Source of the DNA: Frateuria sp. | GTDB lineage: Bacteria; Pseudomonadota; Gammaproteobacteria; Xanthomonadales; Rhodanobacteraceae | Direction: 5' to 3' | Assembly (NCBI RefSeq): GCF_013362045.1 | Contig: NZ_JABFWW010000053.1 | Location: 1 to 34,607, forward strand | DNA length: 34,607 nt | Part shown: positions 10,818 through 14,788 of the stretch, piece by piece | Numbering within the stretch: the first letter of the stretch is position 1 | How the letters are laid out: each line of letters opens with the position of its first letter | The notes under the pieces: model-generated | Told to the model about the DNA's origin: nothing | Databases searched by the model: none | What the model saw: the letters and a program-made list of their open reading frames with translations, nothing else | Made by a program: the position numbers and the translations under genes

Positions 10818-12263
10818 TCAGGCCTCGGCAAAGGGGAACGCGAGCACGTCGGCGATGCCATCCGTGCCGGCCAGGCACATCAGCAGCCGCTCGACGCCCA
10901 GCGCGACGCCGGCGCAGGCCGGCAGGGCGTCGAGCACAGCCAGCAGCCGCTCGTCGATCGGCACCTCGCGCAGGCCGCGGGCGCGCCGCACGGCGTTGTC
11001 GCGGTCGAAGCGACCGCGCTGCTCGGCGGCGTCGTTGAGTTCGTGGTAGCCGTTGGCCAGTTCGTAGGGGCCCAGGTAGAGCTCGAAGCGTTCGGCCACC
11101 GGCGGGTCGTCCGGGCGGATGCGGGCAAGCGCGCACTGGCTGGCCGGGTAGTCGTGGATCACGGTGATGCGGTCGCGCGGGAAGGCTGGCTGCATGCGGT
11201 GGGTGATCAGCAGGTCCAGCCAGTCGTCGCGGGTCAGGCCTGCGGGGTCGACATTCGATCCGGCCAGCGCCTGCTGCAGCGATTCCAACGGCGCGGTAAA
11301 GGGATCGAGGCCCAAGCCATCGAGGAAGATGCCACGGTAGCTGGTTGCCTGCACTTCCGCCTGGCGACCGAGCAGCGCCAGCGTGGCCTGCACCAGTGCC
11401 ACCACCTCCTCCGCCAGCTGCCGGTGATCCCAGCCCAACCGGTACCACTCCAGCATGGTGAATTCGGGATTGTGCCGCCCGCCCGCTTCGCCGTTGCGGA
11501 ACACGCGACCCAGCTCGTAGCAGTCGCCCACGCCCGCGGCCAGCAGTCGCTTGAGCGGAAACTCGGGCGAGGTGCGCAGCCAGCGCTCGCGTGCACCCGC
11601 ATCGACGTGGCCGCTGAAGGCGGTAGTGAAGCTTTCGATGTTGGGGTCGGTGTTGCCGGCGGCGGAGAGGATGGGGGTTTCCACCTCCAGCACGTTGCGG
11701 TCGGCGAAGAAGGAGCGGATCAGGCGATAGACGTCGGCGCGCAGGCGCAGGGCCGAGGCAAAGGCCTCCCCCTCTCCCCACCCCTCTCCCCCCGCCGTGC
11801 GGAGGGGAAGGGGGCTGGAAGGCTGCCGCGAGTTGGAAGGCTGGAGCGAGTTTGCGGAGAACGAGTCGGAAGGCTGCGGCGGGCTTGCCTGGCTCCCTCT
11901 CCCCCGGCGACGCCGGGGGAGAGGGTTGGGGAGAGGGGAAGGCCTTTCGCCCAGGACCTGGACGATCGCTTCGAGCACATCGCCCGTGCGCAGCAGCACC
12001 TCGTCGCTCCAGAAGCGCAGGACTTTGAACCCGGCCCGCTCTAGCATTTGGGTTCGACGGGCGTCGTAAGCCTGCTGTTCGCCATGCTGGCCACCGTCGA
12101 GCTCCACGATCAGTTGGTGTTCCACGCAGCAGAAGTCCGCGTAGTACCCGGCGACCGGGTGCTGGCGGCGGAACTTGGCGCCCAGTTGTACTGCGCGCAG
12201 ATGCGACCAGAGCTTGGCCTCTGCATCGGTCTGGCTGCGGCGCAGTGGTTCGGCGCGATCCAT
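10818..12263 (-). CDS. epmA: DUF559 nuclease-like domain fused in frame to EF-P beta-lysine ligase (EpmA)
   Basis: One uninterrupted 481-codon frame. Residues 1-107 form a DUF559 domain, about 108-168 are a low-complexity linker encoded by a GC-rich repeat, and about 169-481 are a complete EpmA/PoxA/GenX class II aminoacyl-tRNA-synthetase-like core. EpmA attaches (R)-beta-lysine to elongation factor P. Its motifs are present: FFADRNVLEVETP, motif 2 RVFRNGEAGG with HNPEFTMLEWYR, ELANGYHELNDA, and motif 3 GVALGVERLLM. Compared with E. coli EpmA only about a dozen N-terminal residues are missing. No in-frame ATG, GTG or TTG was found between the repeat and the EpmA core, so the DUF559 ATG (with AGGAG upstream) is the visible start. 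An unusual EpmA start codon or a frameshift-maintained arrangement is not excluded. Confidence 0.75.
   Translation of the reverse strand: MDRAEPLRRSQTDAEAKLWSHLRAVQLGAKFRRQHPVAGYYADFCCVEHQLIVELDGGQHGEQQAYDARRTQMLERAGFKVLRFWSDEVLLRTGDVLEAIVQVLGERPSPLPNPLPRRRRGRGSQASPPQPSDSFSANSLQPSNSRQPSSPLPLRTAGGEGWGEGEAFASALRLRADVYRLIRSFFADRNVLEVETPILSAAGNTDPNIESFTTAFSGHVDAGARERWLRTSPEFPLKRLLAAGVGDCYELGRVFRNGEAGGRHNPEFTMLEWYRLGWDHRQLAEEVVALVQATLALLGRQAEVQATSYRGIFLDGLGLDPFTAPLESLQQALAGSNVDPAGLTRDDWLDLLITHRMQPAFPRDRITVIHDYPASQCALARIRPDDPPVAERFELYLGPYELANGYHELNDAAEQRGRFDRDNAVRRARGLREVPIDERLLAVLDALPACAGVALGVERLLMCLAGTDGIADVLAFPFAEA
11760..11947. repeat. 188-bp GC-rich element with inverted termini (copy A)
   Basis: The two ends are imperfect inverted repeats of about 30 bp. 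Each starts AAAGGCCT and continues into CCCCTCTCCCC and CCCTCTCCCCC blocks, followed by GC-rich hairpins such as CCCCCGGCGACGCCGGGGG. The centre holds three spaced copies of GGAAGGCTG. The element lies between the DUF559 and EpmA coding parts. It is translated as the Pro/Ser/Arg-rich linker without a stop codon in that frame. Confidence 0.8.
11942..12263 (-). other. DUF559 (PD-(D/E)XK-like endonuclease) coding segment
   Basis: This is the N-terminal module of the fused ORF. It has the usual DUF559 order: an N-terminal helix with QTDAEAKLWSHLRA, then LGAKFRRQHPVAGYYADFCC, then LIVELDGGQH, then RTQMLERAGFKVLRFWSDEV. The Asp in YYADF and the Glu in VELDGG fit the PD-(D/E)XK nuclease fold related to Vsr. 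At 107 residues it is a complete domain. It is exactly bracketed by repeat copies A and B, unlike any neighbouring gene. The biological role of stand-alone DUF559 proteins is not established. Confidence 0.8.
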
Positions 12264-12282
12264 CGCCTCTTCTCCTTGGTTG

Positions 12283-12395
12283 AAAGGCCTCTCCACCGGC
12301 TGCGCCGGGGGAGAGGGAGCTACGGCGCGCAAGCTCGAGACTCCCTCTCCCCCGGCCACGCCGGGCGAGACAGCCGGGGAGAGGAGGAGGCCTTT
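12283..12395. repeat. 113-bp GC-rich element with inverted termini (copy B)
   Basis: It starts AAAGGCCT and ends AGGCCTTT. Inside are inverted arms containing GCCGGGGGAGAGGGAG and its complement CTCCCTCTCCCCCGGC, around a short centre. It lies between the ligA stop and the DUF559 start, within 20 bases of the DUF559 ATG. The termini match copy A, but the interior is shorter and differs, so the pair is not a simple duplication. Confidence 0.78.
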
Positions 12396-12400
12396 GCTTC

Positions 12401-14788
<2,388 letters not shown>

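Follow-up and report, generated by a model that had tools for sequence, protein, structure and literature searches.

In one Frateuria genome, a single open reading frame joins a DUF559 nuclease-like domain, through a linker made of a repeat element, to a complete EpmA core, and the same layout recurs elsewhere in the family. EpmA activates the translation factor EF-P and, as a rule, is a compact enzyme devoted to one task. Weighing the comparative sequence evidence, we consider it probable that the frame is one translational unit read from the DUF559 ATG, yielding a single DUF559–linker–EpmA protein that would be the cell's only source of EpmA activity. No description of a DUF559–EpmA fusion was found in the literature searched.

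The fused gene and its parts

The window, that is, the whole stretch of 34,607 nucleotides that was analysed, is a contig from a 317-contig, 3.1-Mb assembly that is 86% complete. On its minus strand, the frame 12263–10818 is open from an ATG to a stop codon (10818–10820) and encodes 481 amino acids, with DUF559 first, a 62-residue linker next and the EpmA core last. The features of the locus, with the evidence for each, are as follows:

12401–14779, minus strand: ligA, encoding an NAD-dependent DNA ligase, whose upstream position is conserved (neighbour comparison)
12284–12395, no strand assigned: second repeat element, in the gap from ligA to the DUF559 ATG (sequence; repeat search)
12272–12277, minus strand: Shine–Dalgarno sequence AAGGAG (sequence; kept in G003 and G004)
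11949–12263, minus strand: DUF559 domain, residues 1–105, with its ATG start at 12263 (PF04480, 130.5 bits; 3HRL match; dN/dS)
11763–11948, minus strand: linker of 62 codons (residues 106–167), free of stops and without ATG, GTG or TTG (codon scan; low pLDDT)
11760–11947, no strand assigned: MITE/REP-like element making up the linker, with facing ends AAAGGCCTYCCCCTCTCCCC (copy counts; RNA folding)
10818–11762, minus strand: EpmA (EF-P lysine ligase) core, residues 168–481 and the stop codon (TIGR00462; same-genus identity)

Residues 2–104 of the product matched PF04480 (Pfam; 130.5 bits against a cut-off of 20.6, profile positions 5–108 of 109), and residues 10–106 matched the solved endonuclease-like protein 3HRL (E 1e-30). 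The domain is Vsr-like, of the PD-(D/E)XK type, and D43, E54, D56, G57 and H60 of the D..E.DG..H core are invariant among eight fused and other DUF559s. The EpmA part (residues 172–476) matched TIGR00462 along the entire model (positions 1–304 of 304; 365.2 bits against a cut-off of 286.9), bearing out the first-pass annotation, which had called this core intact, and shares 82–85% identity with EpmA in five same-genus genomes. An own translation start, which is usual for EpmA without strictly defining it, is absent here: neither the linker nor the first 20 EpmA codons contain ATG, GTG or TTG; for the repeat, this had already been noted from the letters alone. The Shine–Dalgarno sequence lies 8 nt upstream of the DUF559 ATG, and CCAAGGAG is identically placed in the two same-genus genomes G003 and G004. 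The frame and this ribosome binding site agree with the earlier statement that reading stays open through a 188-bp repeat into a complete DUF559 domain. In an AlphaFold model the EpmA part is clear and the linker is disordered (pLDDT <50 over residues 94–163); the DUF559 part of the model was built without homologues and is unusable.

The linker of the window is one copy of a palindromic MITE/REP-like element that is abundant in the genome and has both the high copy number and the inverted ends of that class. The 20-bp ends of this 188-bp element face each other at 11760 and 11947; the end sequence occurs in 37 genomic copies, against 0 for the reversed control, so the repeat proposed on first reading is genuine, and an inner palindrome at 11895–11925 occurs in 30 copies, against 0 for controls. 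A repeat element here serves as a protein linker. The linker RNA (11760–11951) has a predicted fold of −117.8 kcal/mol, stabler than all 200 shuffled sequences (z −5.7), and such a stem, which translating ribosomes would have to open, might hinder read-through. The second element, at 12284–12395, is palindromic too, and the DUF559 domain is thus bracketed by two repeat elements.

In each fused genome the fused gene is the sole full-strength EpmA-like match, and efp and epmB were found above cut-off, close together, in all 16. The EF-P loop in these genomes reads KPGKGQA, with the modifiable lysine present. The class II motifs of the EpmA core (TSPE, FR... and GxxR) are intact, and T231, S232, P233, E234, F255, R256, E267, E272, W273, R392, E394, E401, N404 and R459 are invariant across P0001 and 26 EpmA sequences. 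Because it is the sole copy, with its motifs intact and its EpmB and EF-P partners kept, we infer that the fused enzyme must work as EpmA.

Distribution and frame conservation

We surveyed the family through 234 genomes, each from a different species, and found the uninterrupted DUF559–linker–EpmA frame in 16, the window's species and 15 others, spanning eight genus groups (g1, g5, g7, g9, g22, g23, g24 and g25). This shared layout fits the fusion reading offered in the first-pass annotation. Two of the five same-genus genomes carry the fusion, one of them a single contig (G004); a two-contig assembly (G208) elsewhere in the family carries it as well. A normal start codon inside the same sequence in relatives had been named as something that would overturn the reading; the two fused same-genus relatives have no EpmA ATG or GTG, only TTG leucine codons inside the core. 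In the other three same-genus genomes epmA begins with a normal ATG, and a different small gene separates it from ligA. At these three loci (L005, L007 and L009) a gene of ~385 nt occupies the place of DUF559 and is perhaps of the VOC/glyoxalase kind, judged by eye only.

Among the best matches listed from 399 genomes of the order, none outside the family was a full-length fusion, and a contig scan of named public genomes returned unfused loci only. In EpmA trees that included named loci, the Rhodanobacter, Dyella and Luteibacter sequences fall among the family's genus groups, which identifies the family as Rhodanobacteraceae. Further epmA fusions were considered in G006, G020, G021, G185, G201 and G143 on the strength of long frames or similarity, and none is one.

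DUF559 lies directly upstream of epmA in 18 species, a count taken among the matches listed that may miss weakly similar unfused neighbours, and in 16 of these the two are in frame. With a chance of one-third for each, the probability of this is 1.7e-6, a figure that is overstated because related species are not independent, although the direction is unaffected. The 16 linkers range from 111 to 315 nt and have 15 different lengths, all multiples of three; read in frame they contain 0 stop codons, whereas the other two frames hold 10 and 20. Aligned within a genus, the linkers differ by large indels; in genus group g23 one-base gaps are compensated. Of the two unfused species, one (G101) has a DUF559 stop that overlaps epmA's own ATG, and the other (G211), a draft genome, loses the frame within a hexanucleotide tract. 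This tract (L216, G211:C161:1200-4800) is an (AAGCCA)n run, made irregular by a single extra A, that separates DUF559 from epmA; it may be a frame break or, possibly, a phase-variable switch.

By simple counting, which is rough at these distances, dN/dS across the fused genes was 0.07–0.24 for DUF559 and 0.09–0.19 for EpmA, and 0.10–0.12 for the window's DUF559 against its same-genus relatives; in the linker, pN was about equal to pS. The low values of both domains, set beside a linker in which pN approximates pS, show that both domains are under purifying selection while the linker is held mainly in frame. Judged on these comparisons, one reading frame is kept across eight genera by selection. 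Since the linker residues are nearly free to vary, a protease could split the product.

A further arrangement was seen at locus L169 (G071:C3:274300-278600), where three tandem DUF559-repeat units stand upstream of epmA at a spacing of exactly 501 bp; the first two DUF559 units end in stops, and the third alone is fused.

History of the ligA–epmA junction

The stop codon of ligA overlaps or directly adjoins the start of epmA in most unfused relatives, Xanthomonas, Dyella and Luteibacter among them, and the overlap is most often ATGA or GTGA; a ligA stop overlapping the epmA start is likely the ancestral layout. The fusion sits in this junction, and in two fused species (G228 and G229) the DUF559 frame begins at the GTGA overlap with ligA, the usual place of the epmA start. 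In most relatives within the family, unfused EpmA starts ~2–8 codons before the point matching residue 168 of the fusion. The first dozen EpmA residues had been thought replaced by repeat sequence; the native start is indeed lost, but the loss amounts only to the start codon and about five initial residues.

The EpmA tree follows genus, and the fused EpmAs do not form one clade (at least nine changes; p-AU 7e-66), which rejects movement of the fused gene as a whole between genera. The fused DUF559s group by genus, and the test does not reject their forming one clade (p-AU 0.18). DUF559 and EpmA divergences are correlated (r 0.81 over 120 pairs), DUF559 pS is equal to or above EpmA pS in nearly all 120 pairs, and there is no excess DUF559 similarity between genera. 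Recent horizontal spread, for which the nuclease should be less diverged than its host gene, did not show itself in these pairs, and recent jumps of DUF559 across genera are likewise unsupported, the domain being as diverged between genera as EpmA.

This pattern agrees with an old fusion that was lost repeatedly; the losses may have come about when members of a genus exchanged the junction, which the mixed genus group g1 suggests. Several old independent insertions are possible, and G091 looks like one. On the sequence comparisons the fusion is old within genera and no peculiarity of the window's genome. The suggestion of an unusual capture of epmA by a nuclease/repeat unit therefore holds as far as the linker is a repeat element, and gives way as regards an event unique to this genome. 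Tests for two other connections of the domain gave little: a single-sequence scan for a viral origin returned nothing and a profile scan only distant DUF559s (up to 55% identity), and for a role in anti-phage defence the one hit, to DpdF, was weak (E 7e-5, 18.8 bits).

Readings of the fusion and related systems

In the reading that we prefer, ribosomes would start at the DUF559 ATG (12263) and read through the repeat-derived linker, making one polypeptide of 481 residues that would supply EpmA activity for EF-P, with a DUF559 part of putative nuclease or nucleic-acid-binding activity. A DUF559 coding segment may have landed where the ligA stop overlaps the epmA start, pushing out the native start codon; the linker would have been formed by palindromic repeat elements, and frame-breaking changes would since have been discarded by selection on the needed downstream enzyme.

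An arrangement of two proteins from one frame, in which DUF559 reads on and EpmA also starts internally at an unusual codon, such as the CTG at the LxLRA motif, with the help of the purine-rich repeat (GGGGAGAGGGGGAGG), seems improbable to us. Shine–Dalgarno-like stretches from the repeat do lie just before the EpmA core, and some fusions have an ATG (G091, at about the native place, and G198), TTG or GTG nearby. However, six fused species have no ATG, GTG or TTG anywhere in the linker or across the first 20 codons of EpmA; the LxLRA codons are unconserved (CTG, TTG or CTC for the first leucine and CTG, TTG, CTC or TTA for the second); and an own EpmA start would leave the linker frame unheld, yet all 16 are in frame. 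That the window's frame is an assembly error within the repeat, or a pseudogene on its way out, is hardly credible: the fragmented, incomplete assembly and the error-prone C-runs would allow for an error, but no sequencing indel explains a frame that recurs in 15 other species, including the one-contig same-genus G004 and the two-contig G208, and the low dN/dS of both domains argues against decay. A sequencing indel, which the first-pass annotation had held out as a refutation, thus fails as one.

The origin of the fusion, as distinct from its product, could also lie with a selfish homing-type DUF559 nuclease that invades the ligA/epmA junction and becomes deletion-proof by holding the start of a gene that the cell needs; this account is compatible with one fused protein, and we regard it as unlikely. 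Vsr-like homing endonucleases have a related nuclease fold and insert at a fixed site, and the DUF559 here is of the Vsr-like/PD-(D/E)XK type. Consistent with such an origin are the place where DUF559 begins in G228 and G229, at the GTGA overlap, the patchy distribution with fused EpmAs that are not one clade and a DUF559 clade that is not rejected, the three tandem copies in G071 and the joining of DUF559 to other genes described below; against it, DUF559 divergence between genera equals that of EpmA, and recent jumps are not indicated.

In two species DUF559 also runs on in frame, across a repeat linker, into the heme chaperone HemW (L200, G020:C1:1808200-1812000; L201, G021:C1:2365000-2368500; TIGR00539, 364 and 355 bits against a cut-off of 205), and in G020 ATG, GTG and TTG are absent from the linker between the domains. 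The two cases suggest a wider habit. At L180 (G012:C100:7000-12500) the Type_ISP_C domain of a Type ISP restriction enzyme is interrupted in frame by DUF559, which resembles an intein without splicing. It is conceivable, though we would not favour it, that the DUF559s of this family are gene-capping mobile elements that lodge in frame at the start codons of housekeeping genes or close to them (in 16 species epmA, in two hemW, and internally a Type ISP enzyme) and seize translation initiation; with initiation taken over, such an element could not be deleted without killing the host gene, and would persist as inteins do, with no splicing.

The EpmA part resembles EpmA/GenX/PoxA (TIGR00462; PDB 3A5Y, 3A5Z and 3G1Z) in its complete catalytic core, class II motifs and EpmB and EF-P partners, whereas known EpmA has a short N-terminal tail of its own and here ~167 residues with a nuclease-like domain precede the core, the native start being gone. 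Likewise, the N-terminal part shares the KFRRQ, DF, VELDGGQH and RFW motifs with DUF559 (PF04480; PDB 3HRL; PRK09767 family; Caulobacter VsrA, PMC12907096) and is alignable over its full length, but many stand-alone DUF559s in the family stop after ~110 residues, and here the domain heads a translation-factor ligase. The Caulobacter member is responsible for an SOS response when a methyltransferase is missing (PMC12907096). DUF559 at the C-terminus of TrmJ-like SPOUT methyltransferases was noted in Alphaproteobacteria in 2007 (PMC1829167); there the same nuclease domain is attached to an RNA- or translation-related enzyme, but the partner differs, the domain is at the opposite end and a repeat linker is not described. 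Rickettsia palindromic elements and Coxiella QMITEs occur in frame inside ORFs (PMC10969869 and PMC5896051), where an inserted palindromic repeat similarly becomes protein sequence; those elements are added to one protein, whereas here the repeat joins two domains and replaces the start of the second.

A nuclease-like domain before the only EpmA could mean either that EF-P activation is linked to nucleic acids, which is undescribed in the literature searched, or that a nuclease gene has secured itself against deletion by taking over the start of a gene the cell needs. The fusion is in any case likely to confuse automatic annotation of epmA start sites. In G195, the frame of another DUF559 copy continues into a GDSL lipase, which possesses an ATG of its own.
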